In this document: piece after piece, positions 6,817-59,587 of the stretch
Numbering within the stretch: position 1 is the stretch's first letter
Layout of the letters: every line of letters begins with the position of its first letter
DNA from: Nitrospirota bacterium
GTDB taxonomy: Bacteria; Nitrospirota; Nitrospiria; Nitrospirales; Nitrospiraceae
Reading direction: 5' to 3'
Length of the DNA stretch: 64,000 nucleotides
Assembly (NCBI GenBank): GCA_030684575.1
Contig: JAUXVD010000008.1
Coordinates: 310,001 to 374,000, forward strand
Notes under the pieces: model-generated
Database searches by the model: none
What the model saw: only the letters and a program-made list of their open reading frames with translations
What the model was told of the DNA's origin: nothing
Made by a program: the position numbers and the translations under genes

Positions 6817-7302
6817 ATGTTGAAGGAAGTAACCGGGGATATTTTATTGACCAAGGCAGAGGCGTTGGCGCATGGCGTCGCACCAAACGACAACTTCGCC
6901 CATGGGTTAGCCTTGGCGCTTAGAGAGCGATGGCCGGCGATGTATAAAGACTTCCGGCATTATTCTCAGACCTACAGCCCGAAGGCCGGGGAGCTCTGGA
7001 CCTGGGGCGGTGTCGGTGGTGTTCGCATTGTGAATTTGCTGACCCAGGAGCCTGCTGTCGGTCATGGGGCCAGCCACCCGGGCCGGGCCACCATCGAGAA
7101 CGTGAACCACTGTCTGAAAGCGTTATGTAAGGCGATCGAGACCGAGAAGTTCAAGAGTGTTGCGCTTCCACGTCTGGCCACTGGTGTGGGCGGGCTCGAC
7201 TGGAAAGATGTCAAGCCGCTGGTAGAAAAACACCTCGGTCAGCTGTCTATCCCCGTGTATATTTATTCCACATATCAATCCGGGGTCCAGGCAGAGGAAT
7301 AG
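6817..7302 (+). CDS. macrodomain protein (TARG1/DarG-like ADP-ribosyl hydrolase fold)
   Basis: The 161-residue product is a single macrodomain. GDILLTKAEALAHGV at the N-terminus is the ADP-ribose-binding first loop. A Gly-rich segment (WTWGGVGGVRIVNLLTQ) follows. LPRLATGVGGLDWKDV around residue 112 matches the phosphate-binding loop of the TARG1/DarG class. Such proteins bind or remove ADP-ribose, on proteins or, in DarG, on DNA. No DarT-like toxin lies beside it, so it is either a solitary hydrolase or an orphan antitoxin. A strong GGAGGAGG ribosome binding site sits 7 bases before the ATG. A hairpin repeat directly downstream may serve as its terminator. Confidence 0.85.
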   Translation: MLKEVTGDILLTKAEALAHGVAPNDNFAHGLALALRERWPAMYKDFRHYSQTYSPKAGELWTWGGVGGVRIVNLLTQEPAVGHGASHPGRATIENVNHCLKALCKAIETEKFKSVALPRLATGVGGLDWKDVKPLVEKHLGQLSIPVYIYSTYQSGVQAEE

Positions 7303-20020: not shown

Positions 20021-20103
20021 CAGGGTGTGGCGGAATGGCAGACGCGGCAGCCTTTCAAGCTGCTGGCCGAAAGGCCGTGTGGGTTCAATTCCCACCACCA
20101 AAA
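20021..20103 (+). tRNA. class II tRNA-like gene, anticodon UUC, damaged acceptor stem
   Basis: The body is Leu-like: TG, D arm GCG-GAATGGCAGA-CGC, anticodon stem GCAGC/GCTGC with loop CTTTCAA, long variable arm GGCC-GAAA-GGCC, T arm GTGGG-TTCAATT-CCCAC. The anticodon read from the loop is UUC (Glu), which is not expected on a class II body. Only four acceptor pairs form (GGTG with CACC); the outer three positions are CAG against AAA. It is either a pseudo-tRNA left by element exchange at a tRNA 3' end or a non-canonical tRNA. Aminoacylation cannot be judged. Confidence 0.6.
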
Positions 20104-34316: not shown

Positions 34317-35531
34317 ATGAGCCTACGGAAATCCCCTCAAAACCAGCCGACCAACGTCAAATCTGGGAAGCGAGCCACGGCAGCGAGTCCATCGAGGCCG
34401 GGTATCCCCATCCAGGTTCCAACAGGAGAAGACGCGCAACAAGAGATCTTGCACCACCTCAGGGAACGGGTGAAGGAGCTGACGGCCCTGCACGGAGTCG
34501 TGCGGGTGCTTCAAGGCAGCACGAAGCCGCTGAAGGAGATCTTCCGAGAAATTGTGACCCTCATTCCACCGGCCTGGCAATATCCTGAGGTCGCGGCGGC
34601 TCGTATCAGGTTTGAAGGACTGATTGTGACGACACCCTTTTTCCGAGAAACGGCGTGGATGCAGCGGGCTACGCTCGTGACCGCGAAGGGCATGAGCGGT
34701 TCCATTGAAGTTGTGTATCTGGAGGAGAGGCCGAACGAGCGTGAGGGGCCATTTCTTCTCGAGGAACGTCTGCTCATCGATTCGCTGACCGACAGCGTCT
34801 CGTCCTTTCTCACGCGGCGGGAGGCCGAGGAGTCGTTGCGGGTGGCCCATGCGCAACTACAGACCCTATCCCGCCAGCTCATGCAGGTACAGGAACGGGA
34901 GCGCAGGCAACTCGCGCATGATCTCCACGACGAAATCGGGCAGGCCGTGACCGCGATTAAGATGAATCTCCAGACCATGCAGCGGGTTGCTGATACGTCT
35001 GCCGTTCAGGAGCGCTTAGACGATAGTCTGGGGATGTTGGACAAGATTCTTCAGCGAGTCAGGGATCTGTCGTTGGATCTGCGTCCCTCGCTGCTGGACG
35101 ATCTCGGGTTAGCGCCGGCGGTCCGCTGGTACGTCGAGCGTCAAGCGCAGCGGGCAGGTCTGGTCGCTGAGGTTGAGGCCGAGCATGTGCCGCAGGGGCT
35201 GGAACCGGACTTGGCCGTGGCCTGTTTTCGCATCGTTCAGGAGTCGATCACCAATATCCTGCGTCATGCGAAGGCGACGACGATTCATGTGGACTTACGA
35301 CAGACGGATCAGTGGCTGGATCTGTGCGTCAGAGACGACGGAATCGGTTTTAGCAGCCGGGAGTCGTCGGCCCGGGCCGCCAATCGCCCGAGTCTTGGAT
35401 TGCTCGGAATGCAAGAACGGGCGCAGGCGTTGGGGGGAACAATCTCAATTGAATCCTTGCCGGGTCAGGGGACGGAAGTCCATGTGCGGATTCCGCTCCG
35501 GCCCCCTGAGACAGCGAGAGAGAGAGGCTGA
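34317..35531 (+). CDS. NarL-type sensor histidine kinase (HisKA_3), soluble
   Basis: The 404-residue product has no membrane span. Residues ~45-175 form a GAF-like input region, then a coiled helix leads to the HisKA_3 box ERRQLAHDLHDEIGQ (phospho-His near residue 204) and the ATPase domain with IVQESITNILRHAKA, DDGIGF and GLLGMQERAQALGG. It autophosphorylates in the cytosol and would pass phosphate to the regulator encoded 8 bases downstream. The input signal is not evident; no haem or Cys motif is seen in the GAF-like part. Confidence 0.92.
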   Translation: MSLRKSPQNQPTNVKSGKRATAASPSRPGIPIQVPTGEDAQQEILHHLRERVKELTALHGVVRVLQGSTKPLKEIFREIVTLIPPAWQYPEVAAARIRFEGLIVTTPFFRETAWMQRATLVTAKGMSGSIEVVYLEERPNEREGPFLLEERLLIDSLTDSVSSFLTRREAEESLRVAHAQLQTLSRQLMQVQERERRQLAHDLHDEIGQAVTAIKMNLQTMQRVADTSAVQERLDDSLGMLDKILQRVRDLSLDLRPSLLDDLGLAPAVRWYVERQAQRAGLVAEVEAEHVPQGLEPDLAVACFRIVQESITNILRHAKATTIHVDLRQTDQWLDLCVRDDGIGFSSRESSARAANRPSLGLLGMQERAQALGGTISIESLPGQGTEVHVRIPLRPPETARERG

Positions 35532-35539
35532 GACGCGCC

Positions 35540-36190
35540 ATGCCGATTCGAGTCATATTGGCCGACGATCATATCCTGATTCGAGCAGGTCTCCGCGCCT
35601 TGCTGCAGACCTTGTCGAACATCTCGGTCATCGGGGAAGCGAGTGGCGGACATGAGGCGGTCGAGGCCGTGGCCCGTGAGCAGCCGGATGTGGTGCTGAT
35701 GGATATCGCGATGCCAGGGTTGAATGGCTTGGACGCCGCGGCCCGCATCGTCAAGCAATGGCCCGGAGTTCGGGTCATCATCCTCTCAATGCACGCGAAC
35801 GAAGAATATGTGGGACAAGCGCTCGATGCGGGAGCCACGGGCTATCTCCTCAAAGGTGCGGAGCCCGCTGAGCTGGAGTTGGCGCTGAAGGCTGTCATGC
35901 GCGGCGAAACCTATCTGACGCCAAGCGTGTCGAAGCCTCTCGTGGACGACTACGTAGCTAGGCGAAAAGAGCAAGCCGGTCCCCTGCACGATCTCACCTC
36001 TCGACAGCGAGAAATCCTGCAATTGATCGCGGAGGGCCACTCGACCAAAGCGATGGCCCACAAACTCAATCTGAGCATCAAGACTGTCGAAACCCACCGG
36101 AGCGAACTGATGCGTCGGCTCGACATCCATGATGTGGCAGGCCTGGTGCGCTATGCGATTAAGAAGGGGCTCGTCACCTTGGGCGGTTAG
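35540..36190 (+). CDS. NarL/FixJ-family response regulator
   Basis: The 216-residue product has a receiver with acidic pocket (ADDH), phospho-Asp in VVLMDIAMPG near residue 54 and Lys in YLLKGAEP, then a LuxR-type helix-turn-helix (LTSRQREILQLIAEGHSTKAMAHKL and SIKTVETHRSEL). DNA-binding regulator paired with the upstream kinase. It likely controls some of the neighbouring stress genes, by analogy with DosR. Confidence 0.93.
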   Translation: MPIRVILADDHILIRAGLRALLQTLSNISVIGEASGGHEAVEAVAREQPDVVLMDIAMPGLNGLDAAARIVKQWPGVRVIILSMHANEEYVGQALDAGATGYLLKGAEPAELELALKAVMRGETYLTPSVSKPLVDDYVARRKEQAGPLHDLTSRQREILQLIAEGHSTKAMAHKLNLSIKTVETHRSELMRRLDIHDVAGLVRYAIKKGLVTLGG

Positions 36191-36476
36191 CCGACCGGTC
36201 CTGCTCCCTACCTATGCAGGTTCTTCGCAGAGGGCTCTCCTTTTTCCCGACCACCAGGCTGTCTGTTCCGTCATCTGCTTCTCTCTTCTTTTGTCCCCAT
36301 TGTCCTGAATATCAGGTCCTTTCCCGGTCGGGTCCTCTAGCCCCGCCCATTCCTCAGGTGTTTTCCTCCTCGGTATCAGGGTTCCCCCGATACCGGCTGA
36401 GCGGAATATGTGCGAAATCTATAACCAGACATATCGTAGAGGCTTACCCGGAAAGCCTGAACAAGGAGGACGAACG
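36191..36476. other. spacer without gene
   Basis: Pyrimidine-rich plus strand, with a short hairpin AGGCTT/AAGCCT at 36441-36459 just before the ribosome binding site of the next gene. No gene is seen. Confidence 0.4.
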
Positions 36477-36848
36477 ATGATGGTACAGAAGTCTTCATAT
36501 AGTTTACTGGCAGCCGTCCCGTTGGCGGCCCTGCTCGGGCTCATCGGGTGCACCGGTGTATTTGCGACGCAGGTGGAGAGTACGCTCGGGCCCAATGCAG
36601 GCGCCGACGACCACATGGCGGCGTCGATGCTCTATCAGGCGAAGGCACAGCAATTGGCCGCAGAAGCGGACCGCTATGAAACGGCGGCGTTGAAAATCGG
36701 ACCCTACGAGGACCTCAAGGGCTTCCGGCGTGCAGGGCTGAGGATTGCGGTTCAGGAAAAACGTGGTGAGGCGAATCAGCTGGAGGAACTCTACGCAGTC
36801 CATTACGAAAAAGCTCAAACGATGTACGGAAAGAAGAATCCTGACTGA
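36477..36848 (+). CDS. small lipoprotein, paralogous to the convergent gene at 36957
   Basis: The product (123 residues) has a lipobox LLGLIGC after a short signal, then a helical domain with YETAALKIGPYEDLKGFRRAGLRIAVQEKRGEA. The same domain (KGFRRSSLNIAAQSKWK) is in the convergent gene. Function unknown; likely lipid-anchored in the periplasm. AGGAGG precedes the ATG at good spacing. A strong bidirectional hairpin follows. Confidence 0.75.
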   Translation: MMVQKSSYSLLAAVPLAALLGLIGCTGVFATQVESTLGPNAGADDHMAASMLYQAKAQQLAAEADRYETAALKIGPYEDLKGFRRAGLRIAVQEKRGEANQLEELYAVHYEKAQTMYGKKNPD

Positions 36849-36956: not shown

Positions 36957-37352
36957 TTATTGCTTTCGCTCTTTCGCATACATACGCTTGGCCTTCTCTC
37001 TGTGTTCCGAAGCGAGGAGGCGCAGATCCGATGATTGTTTCCACTTCGATTGGGCGGCAATATTCAGGGAGGATCGACGGAATCCTTTCGTGTCCGTCAG
37101 TGGTGTTATGGCGGCTGCCGCCCGCTCATATTGCAGCGCCTCATCTTCCACGTTCTCCGCCGTGGTGTCATAGAAGTTCGCGATTTCCTCTAATTCGGCT
37201 GGCGTCCAGGGCTTGTCTTGCGCGCCCTTGGTATCCGTCTGTGCCCAGGCCGATGATGTCGCCTGCGAACTGGTGTCATGCCCCGGCAATAGGAACCACG
37301 TTCCCGCAACGCCCAGGAAGAGACCGATGAACAGTGCCATGCTCGTGCGCAT
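36957..37352 (-). CDS. small exported protein, paralogue of the lipoprotein at 36477
   Basis: The 131-residue product begins with a membrane anchor or signal (MALFIGLFLGVAGTWFLLPG) without a lipobox Cys. Its domain YERAAAAITPLTDTKGFRRSSLNIAAQSK aligns with the convergent paralogue, including the final M-Y-x-K segment. Both are probably helical bundles attached to the inner membrane or envelope. Function unknown. Confidence 0.75.
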   Translation of the reverse strand: MRTSMALFIGLFLGVAGTWFLLPGHDTSSQATSSAWAQTDTKGAQDKPWTPAELEEIANFYDTTAENVEDEALQYERAAAAITPLTDTKGFRRSSLNIAAQSKWKQSSDLRLLASEHREKAKRMYAKERKQ

Positions 37353-37436: not shown

Positions 37437-38333
37437 TTAGGCAATGGGACAGGAGGCCCATCGCACGTCGCCTCGCTTCACCCACCCTGGTTGACCGTCC
37501 CGTGTCATCACGTGCAGGAATGCATTCCTGCCAGGATCGTCCTCTTGCACGATCAATTCCGAGTCCAGTCTCCCAATGACCTCGCTACTTCCCATATGAC
37601 CCCGTACCGCAATCCCTTTGGTTTTTGGAGTAAAGCACAAGTTCGGCAGGGCATGAGCCACCATGTCGGGACTGTCTGCCCTCGCAGACTCTCCCGTGGG
37701 ATCGGATCTTTCCCCGTTGTGAGTCTTGGTGTCAGGGGAGTGGTACGCAACTCTGTGGATGGGGATACTCGGTGCGGAAACGGGTCGGAGGTCCTCTAGC
37801 CCATCCCTCAGAGCTTCACCGATCCGCGAAATGAATGACGTGGTTTCGCTCTCGTGAGAGAGCGTGGCCTGCGCCGGCTCGCCTGTCGTCACGTCGGTCA
37901 GGTAGATCCGAGTGACGGTGTCGCTCGCGACGATGCAACTTGCCACAAGCCGAAGGCCTGCTGTGCCCGGTATCAGTGTATGCATGGATGCCAAGGCGCG
38001 GGGACAGATGATCGACGGGATCACGGTCTCTCCCAGCCCTTCAAGCGAGAGGACTTGTTCTTGGAGAATGACGGGGCTCGAGGCATCCGCTGTGAGGGGC
38101 GGTACGGTCCTTTCGTCAGGGGTCACAGGTTTCCCCAGTACGTGCCTCGACGACTTTTCGAGAAGGTTCACGATGGTTTGTATGTCATCCTTCGTAGGCA
38201 TTTCGTAGGACAAGGCAGCCGTGACGGTGGACATTGACCGGGAATGTGAGGTCATGGCACAGCCTGGAAGCACAACGAATCCAAGCAGCATAGCAATAAG
38301 TTGTCTGAAGCCTGAGGTTGTGATGCGATTCAT
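37437..38333 (-). CDS. lipoprotein with C-terminal SH3-like domain, under ANTAR-type leader control
   Basis: The 298-residue product has a signal and lipobox (LLGFVVLPGC). The central part, with RLVASCIVASDTVTRIYLTDV and TLSHESETTSFISRIGEAL, resembles a periplasmic caspase-less sensor domain but is unassigned. The last ~70 residues (GIAVRGHMGSSEVIGRLDSELIVQ ... PGWVKRGDV) look like a bacterial SH3 domain. GGAGGAG precedes the ATG. The leader (38334-38545) carries two dual-hairpin/terminator units, so expression is probably controlled by transcript elongation. Confidence 0.75.
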   Translation of the reverse strand: MNRITTSGFRQLIAMLLGFVVLPGCAMTSHSRSMSTVTAALSYEMPTKDDIQTIVNLLEKSSRHVLGKPVTPDERTVPPLTADASSPVILQEQVLSLEGLGETVIPSIICPRALASMHTLIPGTAGLRLVASCIVASDTVTRIYLTDVTTGEPAQATLSHESETTSFISRIGEALRDGLEDLRPVSAPSIPIHRVAYHSPDTKTHNGERSDPTGESARADSPDMVAHALPNLCFTPKTKGIAVRGHMGSSEVIGRLDSELIVQEDDPGRNAFLHVMTRDGQPGWVKRGDVRWASCPIA

Positions 38334-38349
38334 ATGCTCCTCCTCAAAG

Positions 38350-38386
38350 AAAAAAACGTCCCCGACCGCGATGGGTCTGAGGACGT
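38350..38386 (-). terminator. intrinsic terminator T2 in the lipoprotein leader
   Basis: On the minus strand, ACGTCC ... GACC/GGTC ... GGACGT forms a bulged stem followed by seven T. It lies 16 bases before the start codon. Its 5' arm shares GTCC with hairpin P2b, so the two are mutually exclusive. Confidence 0.8.
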
Positions 38387-38438
38387 CCTTGTCCAGAAGT
38401 CAGGGAGTGAGCCCCGACGGGGAGGCCTCATTGCCCCC
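38381..38438 (-). promoter_or_regulatory. ANTAR-type dual hairpin, second unit (P1b, P2b)
   Basis: P1b at 38419-38438 has a 6-bp stem with hexaloop AATGAG. P2b at 38381-38394 has stem GGAC/GTCC with hexaloop AAGGAC. Both loops have A at position 1 and G at position 4, the known ANTAR-protein recognition pattern. P2b overlaps terminator T2. Confidence 0.75.
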
Positions 38439-38454
38439 GGCGATTCATCTCAAT

Positions 38455-38489
38455 AAAAAAGTCCTCACCCGTTTCCCAGGTAAGGACTT
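38455..38489 (-). terminator. intrinsic terminator T1 in the lipoprotein leader
   Basis: On the minus strand AAGTCCTTACC pairs with GGGTGAGGACTT (about 11 bp with one wobble), then six T. Its 5' arm (AGTCCT) is the 3' arm of hairpin P2a. Confidence 0.8.
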
Positions 38490-38529
38490 CATTGTCCTAG
38501 GTATTATGGAGAGACTCCATTGTCTCTCC
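38483..38529 (-). promoter_or_regulatory. ANTAR-type dual hairpin, first unit (P1a, P2a)
   Basis: P1a (38508-38529) is an 8-bp perfect stem GGAGAGAC/GTCTCTCC with hexaloop AATGGA. P2a (38483-38498) is AGGAC/GTCCT with hexaloop AATGAA. Linker 9 nt. A1 and G4 are present in both loops. P2a and T1 compete. Confidence 0.8.
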
Positions 38530-38546
38530 TGCTGATACAGCAATAC

Positions 38547-38576
38547 ATTATTATCATTCGATCCTGGCTGAGTCAA
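38547..38576 (-). promoter_or_regulatory. sigma-70-type promoter of the lipoprotein gene
   Basis: TTGACT at -35 and AATAAT at -10 (or GATAAT three bases upstream) with an 18- or 15-base spacer. The transcript would start near 38540, immediately before hairpin P1a. Confidence 0.6.
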
Positions 38577-46235: not shown

Positions 46236-47585
46236 TCACTCTGTGAGGACGCATTTTTCGTAGAGATCCTTCAGGTTGCCGGTTGGATCGTAGCGAGCCT
46301 TGAGTTGGCGGTAGGTCGGTTCGTCGTACAACTGCCAGAATGCTTCGCGCGAATAGAATGAATTCGAGTACAGAGACTTTTTGCCTCCCAGCTCCTGAAC
46401 CTTCGCTTCTATTTTCTTATTGAAATAGCCCTCCTCGTGATCGCTTCTGACTGCGTCCCAGAACCCGAAGTTGACGTATAGGGTTTGAGGATTCATTGGG
46501 TACAACGGATAGGAGACTTCCGGATTGTACGTTGCGACTGGACAGACCCACACCGGTTTGATCCCGATCTCCTGATTGAAGAAGCGTGCGAAGGCCGCTG
46601 CATGCTCGATCGGGATCTCCACGTCCTGAATCACGGCTTCTTGCCGCCCGCCTAGCATTCTGGCGACCAGCTGTGCGATGCGTGAATGATTGAATCTCTT
46701 GCGCAGCCTCCAATAGGTCGTGGAGTTCAGATGCTTCTTTCCCCATAACCAGCGCACGAGCGGATGCTGTGCGAGGAAATGTTTTGAACACCAGAACCAA
46801 TCGGTGTCCCAGCGCCAGAGATAGTCGTACGTCGTGAGGTAGTCGATTGTGTTGCACGGGATCGATCGATAGTAGATGTGCCGATCGGTGTAATCGCTGA
46901 GCCACTCGGCCTGGTCGACGAACGTACCGGTCGTGAGATACAGCTCTTGCTCATCGAACAGCGTGCCGTCGATGAAATCTACCTGCCGGTCCTGGCAAAC
47001 CTTCCCTAGCGCCTGGAAATAGAGGTCGAGGTCCGAGTAGCGCTCGTGCTGGAGTTTGACGAATCTTCTGACAGGCACGAGTGCCATTTTTACTTTGAGC
47101 GCATAGCCCAGCGTGCCATAGGAGTTGGCAAAGCCGAAGAACAAATCCCTGTGCTCATTATCGTTGGTGGCCACCGCGATCGTTCCATCTGGCAGGAGGA
47201 CGTCAATTCCCAGGATCGTTTCGTGGACAAACCCATACTTGAACGAGGAGGATTCGATGCCGATTCCGGCCATCGCTCCGCCGATGGTAATCGATTTCAG
47301 TTGGGGGACGACGGCGGGCATGAGCTGGAACGGCAGCGTTTCACGGACGAGGTCCTCGTAGGTCGTCAGGCCTTCGACTTCTGCGTAGCGTTCTTTCTCG
47401 TCAACGTGGATGACGCGATTGAAGTGGCGCAGATCCAGTCTGTGCCGCGGCTCGGCGGTACGCTGCCGGAACAGATTTGATGTGGATTTTTCGAGGGCGA
47501 GGGATCCGGTCCTGTTCGACGCAAGAAGGGTCTTGATCAACGACTCCCGTTTGCGGGCATGGTCTTCATGCGAGATCATGGCCAT
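46236..47585 (-). CDS. FAD-binding oxidoreductase, TmsA/BfaA-like methylene reductase
   Basis: The 449-residue product is a vanillyl-alcohol-oxidase/GMC-like FAD_binding_4 protein. GLTTYEDLVRETLPFQLMPAV and PQLKSITIGGAMAGIGIESSSF form the FAD fold (Gly-rich GGAMAGIG). NSYGTLGYALKVKMALVPV follows. In mycobacteria, relatives named BfaA or TmsA reduce the methylene intermediate made on oleate by the partner SAM enzyme to a 10-methyl branch. Its ATG overlaps the CFA-like gene's TAA (TAATG). Membrane-associated, cytosolic face. Confidence 0.8.
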   Translation of the reverse strand: MAMISHEDHARKRESLIKTLLASNRTGSLALEKSTSNLFRQRTAEPRHRLDLRHFNRVIHVDEKERYAEVEGLTTYEDLVRETLPFQLMPAVVPQLKSITIGGAMAGIGIESSSFKYGFVHETILGIDVLLPDGTIAVATNDNEHRDLFFGFANSYGTLGYALKVKMALVPVRRFVKLQHERYSDLDLYFQALGKVCQDRQVDFIDGTLFDEQELYLTTGTFVDQAEWLSDYTDRHIYYRSIPCNTIDYLTTYDYLWRWDTDWFWCSKHFLAQHPLVRWLWGKKHLNSTTYWRLRKRFNHSRIAQLVARMLGGRQEAVIQDVEIPIEHAAAFARFFNQEIGIKPVWVCPVATYNPEVSYPLYPMNPQTLYVNFGFWDAVRSDHEEGYFNKKIEAKVQELGGKKSLYSNSFYSREAFWQLYDEPTYRQLKARYDPTGNLKDLYEKCVLTE

Positions 47586-49942: not shown

Positions 49943-50806
49943 TTATTGGAGTGGCGCGTCCAGCGACGAGTCAGGCGTCTCCAGACTGGTACGTCCCAAT
50001 GTGCCGTTGCGGTAGTCCAATAGGAGAATCCTCGCTGCCTTGTCACGGTCCAGCCCGCCGCCGCTCCTGGTCAGCAGGCAGCCGCGTTTTTTGGCGATGG
50101 CATCGATGACGTCCGAACTCGTCAGTCCCTCTATCGCAAAGCCGTAGCGAGCCGTCAGCCTGGCCGGATAGCGCGCCAGGAGGATGGTCGCGAGAAATTC
50201 TGCGACGGCTTCGTCATCGACGACCGTGTGGCCCACGGCGTTGACCGTCGCGAGCAGCAGGCCGACGTTCGGGTCTTTGATCGTTCCCCACAACAAACCC
50301 GGTGAGTCGGTGATGGCCATATGGTCGTTCAGTTTGTGACGCTGTTGAACCTTGGTCACCGCCGGTTCGTCGCCCACACGAGCGATACGGCGTTTGAGGA
50401 GCATATTCATCAGGGTCGATTTTCCGACGTTGGGGATTCCCATAATCAGCATGCGCAGCGGCTTGACGCTGCTGTTTCGATGGGGGGCGAGTGGCTGACA
50501 GAGCTGGGGGATCTTGGCGGCATCGCCCGCATGATGGCATGAGAGGGCCACGGCGCTGACGCCCGGTTGCCGGTTATACAGATTGAGCCAAGCCTGTGTG
50601 ACGGCGGGATCGGCAAGGTCGGCTTTGTTGAGGACTTTCAGGCTGGGACGCTGGCGGACCAGGCGCAGTTCTTCGATCAGCGGGTTGATGCTGGCGTCAG
50701 GTATGCGTGCATCCAGCACCTCGACGATGACATCGATCACCTCCATCGTCTTGGCCGCTTCTTTGCGCGCGGCATTCATGTGACCGGGGAACCATTGGAT
50801 GGACAT
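49943..50806 (-). CDS. ylqF: circularly permuted GTPase, YlqF/RbgA-like ribosome assembly factor
   Basis: The 287-residue product starts MSIQWFPGHMNAARKEAAK, the YlqF hallmark. GTPase motifs are in permuted order: G4 NKAD, G5 near SCHH, then G1 GIPNVGKST, G2 and G3 DSPGLL. The C-terminal domain (YGFAIEGLTSSDVIDAIAKKRG) is the usual RbgA tail. It helps assemble the large ribosomal subunit. No SD is visible, as is common for this start. Confidence 0.95.
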   Translation of the reverse strand: MSIQWFPGHMNAARKEAAKTMEVIDVIVEVLDARIPDASINPLIEELRLVRQRPSLKVLNKADLADPAVTQAWLNLYNRQPGVSAVALSCHHAGDAAKIPQLCQPLAPHRNSSVKPLRMLIMGIPNVGKSTLMNMLLKRRIARVGDEPAVTKVQQRHKLNDHMAITDSPGLLWGTIKDPNVGLLLATVNAVGHTVVDDEAVAEFLATILLARYPARLTARYGFAIEGLTSSDVIDAIAKKRGCLLTRSGGGLDRDKAARILLLDYRNGTLGRTSLETPDSSLDAPLQ

Positions 50807-59263: not shown

Positions 59264-59587
59264 GAATCCTCCTTGCTAGGCACGTGGGTTAAGGGGGCAC
59301 CAGAAGTACATTGCTCCTGGAAGAGCCCGCGATCACGTGACTATGAACTTTTCCTCTCACTCGCGCCAGTTCTATATTTTCACGTTGTTACTTCATAAGG
59401 ATTACACAGAATTGATTCTGCGTTGTGTCATCCACGATCGGGGATGGAAGGGGCAGGGCCCGATTCAGATTTGCGGTGCGCGCCATTCTACCGCCCGCCT
59501 CTCCCATTGCCTGTGGAGTTTTGTTAGGTCAAGTTGTCGGTCAAGTCCCGTTGCACCTTCCTTGTGTCCTCGGTAAGCTGCACTGCC

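Follow-up and report, generated by a model that had tools for sequence, protein, structure and literature searches.

A leader predicted to place a Nitrospirota lipoprotein gene in a nitrogen-assimilation regulon by two-step ANTAR antitermination

Described ANTAR systems and the leader in the window

In the EutV system, an ANTAR dimer binds the hexaloops of two RNA hairpins, P1 and P2, with G4 of the loops being essential, and the terminator is prevented (PMC3369931, PMC8934654). The leader described here resembles the eut leaders of E. faecalis in its P1 and P2 hexaloops, in A1 and G4, and in the overlap of P2 with the terminator, and the two systems also share several attenuators per regulon and a homologous ANTAR domain. 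However, EutV is a REC-ANTAR protein activated by EutW, whereas the candidate regulator here is a GAF-GAF-ANTAR protein, and the putative targets here are nitrogen-assimilation genes rather than genes for ethanolamine use. The linkers between P1 and P2 are 5 to 12 nt long in E. faecalis eut, where a length of 14 nt cut induction (PMC3369931). A 20-nt linker extension abolished in vitro antitermination in the EutV system (PMC8934654), and P1-P2 linkers of 2 to 25 nt were accepted in actinobacteria (PMC8164766). Most of the linkers found here are longer than those of E. faecalis eut, with unit a of the present leader falling within that range.

Klebsiella NasR and its nasF leader combine an ANTAR protein with nitrate/nitrite-assimilation targets, as is also the case here. 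In contrast to the GAF domains and at least four putative target operons found in our analysis, NasR senses nitrate through a NIT domain and acts on a single operon (PMC3369931). NasS-NasT likewise exerts ANTAR-type control over nitrate/nitrite assimilation genes through leader RNA, but there the sensor NasS holds NasT until nitrate or nitrite frees it (PMC3795266), whereas the sole ANTAR protein here is the GAF-GAF-ANTAR protein itself. ANTAR nitrogen regulons have been predicted for Desulfotomaculum acetoxidans and Pelobacter carbinolicus, in which many dual-hexaloop attenuators lead P-II, amt, nitrite, nitrate, and glutamine genes (PMC3369931). Since 13 attenuators are spread over six transcription units in D. 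acetoxidans (PMC3369931), more than one attenuator per unit was already implied there. However, both organisms belong to other phyla, and neither a GAF-GAF-ANTAR protein nor a lipoprotein target was described for them (PMC3369931). As of 2012, no GAF-containing ANTAR protein had been characterised (PMC3369931). Our search of the main texts of open-access papers for Nitrospira with ANTAR or antitermination returned no relevant paper; this is weak evidence, and the Nitrospira-wide set of ANTAR switches is apparently new to description. The GAF regulator, the long linkers, and the two units before one gene are variations on a known kind of antitermination. What we regard as new is the putative Nitrospira-wide regulon, its candidate GAF-GAF-ANTAR regulator, and the longer inter-hairpin linkers, one of which is folded.

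The window (the whole 64-kb stretch of DNA that was analysed) carries on its minus strand, at 38576-38331, a sigma70-like promoter followed by two P1-P2-terminator units in tandem and the start of a lipoprotein gene. A sequence-only reading made earlier had named this promoter, both hairpin pairs with their terminators, the Shine-Dalgarno sequence, and the ATG, and all of them were located; its 8-bp P1a and its counts of six T in T1 and seven in T2 match the sequence. The hairpin inside the P1b-P2b linker is an addition to that description. The features are as follows.

38547..38576, minus strand: sigma70-like promoter TTGACT-18-AATAAT (pattern scan; consensus match alone)
38508..38529, minus strand: P1a hairpin, 8 bp, hexaloop AATGGA (sequence, fold, and P1 covariation in 17 aligned units)
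38483..38498, minus strand: P2a hairpin, 5 bp, core GGAC-AATGAA-GTCC, exclusive with T1 (sequence; core conservation)
38455..38489, minus strand: intrinsic terminator T1, six T (fold; compensatory changes in orthologues)
38419..38438, minus strand: P1b hairpin, 6 bp including one G-U, hexaloop AATGAG (sequence; pair counts)
38399..38418, minus strand: extra 7-bp hairpin inside the P1b-P2b linker (fold)
38381..38394, minus strand: P2b hairpin, 4 bp, hexaloop AAGGAC, exclusive with T2 (sequence)
38350..38386, minus strand: intrinsic terminator T2, seven T (fold; conserved in orthologues)
38331..38345, minus strand: Shine-Dalgarno sequence GAGGAGG and ATG of the lipoprotein gene (sequence)
37437..38333, minus strand: lipoprotein gene, 298 aa, lipobox LPGC, the putatively controlled gene (sequence; no Pfam/NCBIfam match)
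36957..37352, minus strand: small secreted protein gene, 131 aa (sequence; gap of ~85 bases after the lipoprotein gene)

The promoter is the sole sigma70-like match within 600 bases by pattern scan. As the earlier reading had claimed, all four hexaloops of the window leader have A1 and G4, and in unit a and unit b alike the 3' arm of P2 sits within the 5' arm of the terminator. The predicted stabilities are -20.7 kcal/mol for T1 versus -5.6 for P2a and -17.9 for T2 versus -4.0 for P2b. Terminators so much stabler than the P2 hairpins are the usual default-off arrangement, which is thus predicted for this leader. The P1-P2 linker has 9 nt in unit a and about 26 nt, including the internal hairpin, in unit b.

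Chance expectation and conservation of the leader

Both strands of the window were scanned for a P1 of at least 5 bp, a P2 of at least 4 bp, and a terminator formed from the 3' arm of P2 and followed by a T run. Exactly two sites were found, unit a and unit b, and 100 dinucleotide-preserving shuffles of the window yielded none. The leader folds with z = -5.4, and none of 200 shuffles was equally stable. The P1b stretch folded alone was no better than its shuffles (z +0.8), which is due to its GC-rich composition. The double-unit leader is confirmed as real and had been read correctly from the sequence.

The lipoprotein gene is present in 10 of 147 family genomes, with the own genome counted, and all 10 loci carry the leader, with two full units in nine and a single unit in L008. 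Although lipoprotein identity drops to 21-25% in distant members, the loops, the P2 core, and the terminators are still kept. A promoter-like TTGACA or TTGACT with a -10-like hexamer lies upstream of the leader in 8/10 loci. Over 17 aligned units, P1 showed 25 cells with changes on both sides of a pair, a number reached by 0/500 shuffles, and slid structures gave 0 to 12 such cells. These changes fell on six of the seven P1 pairs, the seventh being constant. The P2 core GGAC-loop-GTCC did not vary at all in the 17 units, and because it is invariant it is uninformative on pairing. For T1, compensatory swaps from GC to CG were found in seven sequences; T2 is conserved among the orthologues and too uniform for a covariation signal. 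These comparisons indicate that the stems, P1 at least, are conserved by pairing. Loops or stems that were not conserved in relatives would have spoken against the sequence-only reading; instead, the leader is conserved in ten loci and carries compensatory changes.

The same data bear on ribosome-mediated attenuation through a leader peptide. The P1a loop contains the ATG of a seven-codon ORF, ATGGAGTCTCTCCATAATACCTAG, with a purine-rich stretch upstream. However, orthologues such as L003 (loop AACGAC) and L005 (loop AAGGGC) keep the hairpin without the ATG, and the changes in P1 are compensatory. We therefore give almost no credence to a leader peptide over an ANTAR-type site.

The linker is 9 to 12 nt long in unit a of the lipoprotein leaders and 20 to 28 nt in unit b, where it usually holds a hairpin. 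This hairpin is predicted in most orthologues, with z about -4 in the own leader and its two closest relatives.

Sites at other genes and the ANTAR protein

The lipoprotein leaders served to build R1, a covariance model of P1-P2. Its matches at those leaders are hence by construction, whereas its matches at other genes are independent of model training. In the own genome, R1 found the two window units and three sites on contig C1, at 59348-59406, 50213-50271, and, more weakly, 46310-46373. The first C1 site precedes an operon for a BBP2-type porin, Amt, a second Amt-like protein, P-II (GlnK), GlnD, and GlnA. The second precedes genes for an NrtA-like binding protein, a permease, an NtrCD-type ATPase, and cyanase (nrtABC-cynS), and the third a formate/nitrite transporter gene followed by one for a ferredoxin-nitrite-reductase-like protein (nirC-nirA); the transporter and nitrite reductase names come from family matches, some of which are under equivalog cut-offs. 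In the own genome, the model thus also points to nitrogen-assimilation operons. Both sequence checks suggested in the earlier reading, on the leader in relatives and on ANTAR proteins in the genome, turned out in its favour. Weak own-genome matches on contigs C23, C22, and C14 (E 0.03-1) fall within coding sequences and were discarded.

Across the family, R1 sites at E <= 0.01 were found in 82/98 genomes, and none of the 22 genera sampled lacked them. Many sites in named Nitrospira genomes lie behind the ANTAR gene, and the genes downstream of them are porin/amt genes, NAD synthase-amt, Peripla_BP_5/BPD_transp_2 transporter genes, or a histidine kinase-regulator pair. In 43 further aligned sites, G4 was present in both loops without exception (43/43), while A1 was found in 40/43 P1 loops and 34/43 P2 loops, the remaining loops having G1. 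A1 is therefore not strict in the family. The P2 core was kept in 41 and a terminator reusing the 3' arm of P2 in 39 of these 43 sites. Linkers at other family sites measured 14 to 42 nt, mostly 20 to 42 nt. A folded linker was considered as a general feature and rejected: linkers at other genes show only weak structure (mean z -0.31), so that the claim is made for the lipoprotein leader alone, and there for unit b. In L041, the nrtA leader on the minus strand near 7264 resembles two units, the second ~160 bases further downstream; however, the loop of the hairpin before its second P2 counts ten bases rather than six.

The two terminators of the lipoprotein leader are both strong and intrinsic, and they might simply insulate the gene from upstream transcription as plain tandem terminators without any regulation. 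However, the gene's own promoter precedes T1 and T2, and the gene upstream of the leader, encoding a P-type ATPase, is divergent on the opposite strand, which leaves little upstream transcription to be kept out. Terminators also need no P1, hexaloops, or P2 core, and yet these are conserved, and the complete P1-P2-terminator set recurs upstream of nitrogen operons. Plain insulation is therefore very improbable.

The earlier reading had placed the regulator in trans and suggested a genome search for ANTAR proteins. That search found a single one, encoded outside the window on contig C5, and this protein is the candidate regulator. It is a 421-aa GAF-GAF-ANTAR protein, in which the ANTAR domain (PF03861, 70.6 bits versus a cut-off of 27.3) occupies residues 356-407 behind the two GAF domains. 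The domain aligns with Rv1626, EutV (6wsh), and NasR (4akk) and is homologous to them. By its nearest named relatives, the protein puts the own genome within Nitrospira or beside it. In the first 20 genomes checked, an ANTAR protein was present in all, nearly always as a single one.

We compared the occurrence of the site (E <= 0.001) and of the ANTAR gene among genomes of >= 90% completeness and <= 5% contamination. A site was present in 58/64 genomes with an ANTAR gene versus 1/15 without (Fisher P 4e-10, uncorrected for phylogeny). This P value is not to be taken at face value, because all 15 ANTAR-free genomes belong to one genus, g6, and the independent losses are few; within g6, the counts were 4/4 versus 1/15 (P = 0.0013). 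Six of the ANTAR-bearing high-quality genomes had no site at this threshold. A separate draw over the phylum, whose genomes partly overlap with the first set, gave sites within the family in 13/13 genomes with an ANTAR gene versus 0/9 without.

In genus g6, the ANTAR protein and the sites are both missing from most genomes, which suggests a different nitrogen control in this genus. Genome G087, alone among the high-quality family genomes, has a strong RNA site (contig C17, 157109-157170) with no ANTAR protein found, which may reflect an assembly gap or a recent loss.

The leader is structured and its helices are mutually exclusive, as would be expected of a metabolite-binding riboswitch or of a protein-binding leader from another described family. 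However, no Rfam family matched it at the gathering score, the matches at E <= 10 were unrelated, there is no conserved core beyond the hairpins, and its occurrence tracks the ANTAR gene. We regard membership in such a family as extremely improbable.

Leader conservation, the one ANTAR protein, and the shared RNA sites before nitrogen operons argue for the ANTAR-type reading first proposed. The GAF-GAF-ANTAR protein very probably also controls the porin-amt-glnK-glnD-glnA, nrtABC-cynS, and nirC-nirA operons. Control of ammonium, nitrate-type/cyanase, and nitrite operons by this protein would put the lipoprotein in a nitrogen-assimilation regulon. Judged from sequence comparison, we hold it highly probable that the leader works by two-step ANTAR antitermination and places the lipoprotein gene in this regulon.

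Proposed mechanism and neighbourhood of the lipoprotein gene

In the mechanism we propose, the 5' leader of the lipoprotein mRNA would contain two ANTAR dual-hexaloop attenuators in a row. In the default state, T1 would form, followed by T2 in transcripts that pass T1, and transcription would stop, since each terminator is much stabler than the P2 it excludes. The active GAF-GAF-ANTAR protein may bind the nascent P1 and P2 of each unit, and a protein-held P2 would block the terminator and allow antitermination. In unit b, the linker hairpin would draw P1 and P2 together. RNA polymerase would need two rescues, from which lower leakage and sharper induction would be expected. A signal of nitrogen status may be sensed by the GAF domains; 2-oxoglutarate is one candidate, by analogy with the GAF domain of NifA.

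The two-gate logic draws on the leader anatomy and on retention in nine of ten loci. Antitermination by the ANTAR protein could also be true with the second unit being a relic or a back-up, so that control is effectively one-step. L008 manages with a single unit, most sites at other genes are single-unit, and P2b has only 4 bp. However, both units are kept in 9/10 loci down to about 21% identity, with loops, P2 core, and terminator intact, and we consider effective one-step control unlikely in comparison with two-step antitermination.

Nitrospira are dominant nitrite oxidisers, and some are complete ammonia oxidisers. If the two-step reading and its regulon hold, one conserved protein and its RNA sites would explain how nitrogen assimilation is switched beside energy-yielding nitrogen oxidation, and a list of target operons would be gained, with an envelope lipoprotein as an added member. 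The long-linker sites of Nitrospira would also be natural test cases for the linker-length rule derived from EutV. We lean slightly towards a broader picture for Nitrospirales, in which GAF-GAF-ANTAR would be a global regulator of nitrogen assimilation by RNA antitermination with relaxed geometry (a long or folded linker) and the two-gate lipoprotein would be a dedicated output of nitrogen status.

Searches of Pfam, NCBIfam, and PDB profiles with the lipoprotein and its orthologues gave no family, with a sub-threshold SH3_3 hint in 2/9. An AlphaFold model from a two-sequence alignment was unusable (pLDDT 39). The 131-aa gene downstream is probably co-transcribed with the lipoprotein gene, as judged from the short gap and from no terminator being seen between them; the two would then form one operon behind the leader. 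In L003 and L008, a homologue of this gene follows the lipoprotein gene immediately and in the same orientation. The small secreted protein family accompanies the lipoprotein in 8/9 orthologous loci, as seen in short flanks, and in the remaining locus, that of G061, a copy lies ~2 kb further away. No family match was obtained for the small secreted proteins of 131 aa and 146 aa in the window. The convergent small secreted protein genes at 36408-36848 (plus strand) and 36957-37352 (minus strand) are mutual paralogues (43% over 69 aa).

The lipoprotein gene sits apart from the nitrogen cluster in its own genome. In G061 and G023, the lipoprotein is found within about 10 kb of porin-amt genes, and less than 8 kb of L125 holds the ANTAR gene, an NAD synthase gene preceded by an R1 site, and the lipoprotein gene with its tandem leader. 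Elsewhere in the window, positions 20024-20099 (plus strand) gave an Rfam tRNA match of 43.5 bits and none by ARAGORN, possibly a divergent or degenerate tRNA. A histidine kinase and a LuxR-type response regulator are encoded as a pair at 34317-36190 (plus strand), and in L125 and L084 similar kinase-regulator pairs are found next to the lipoprotein or to ANTAR sites.
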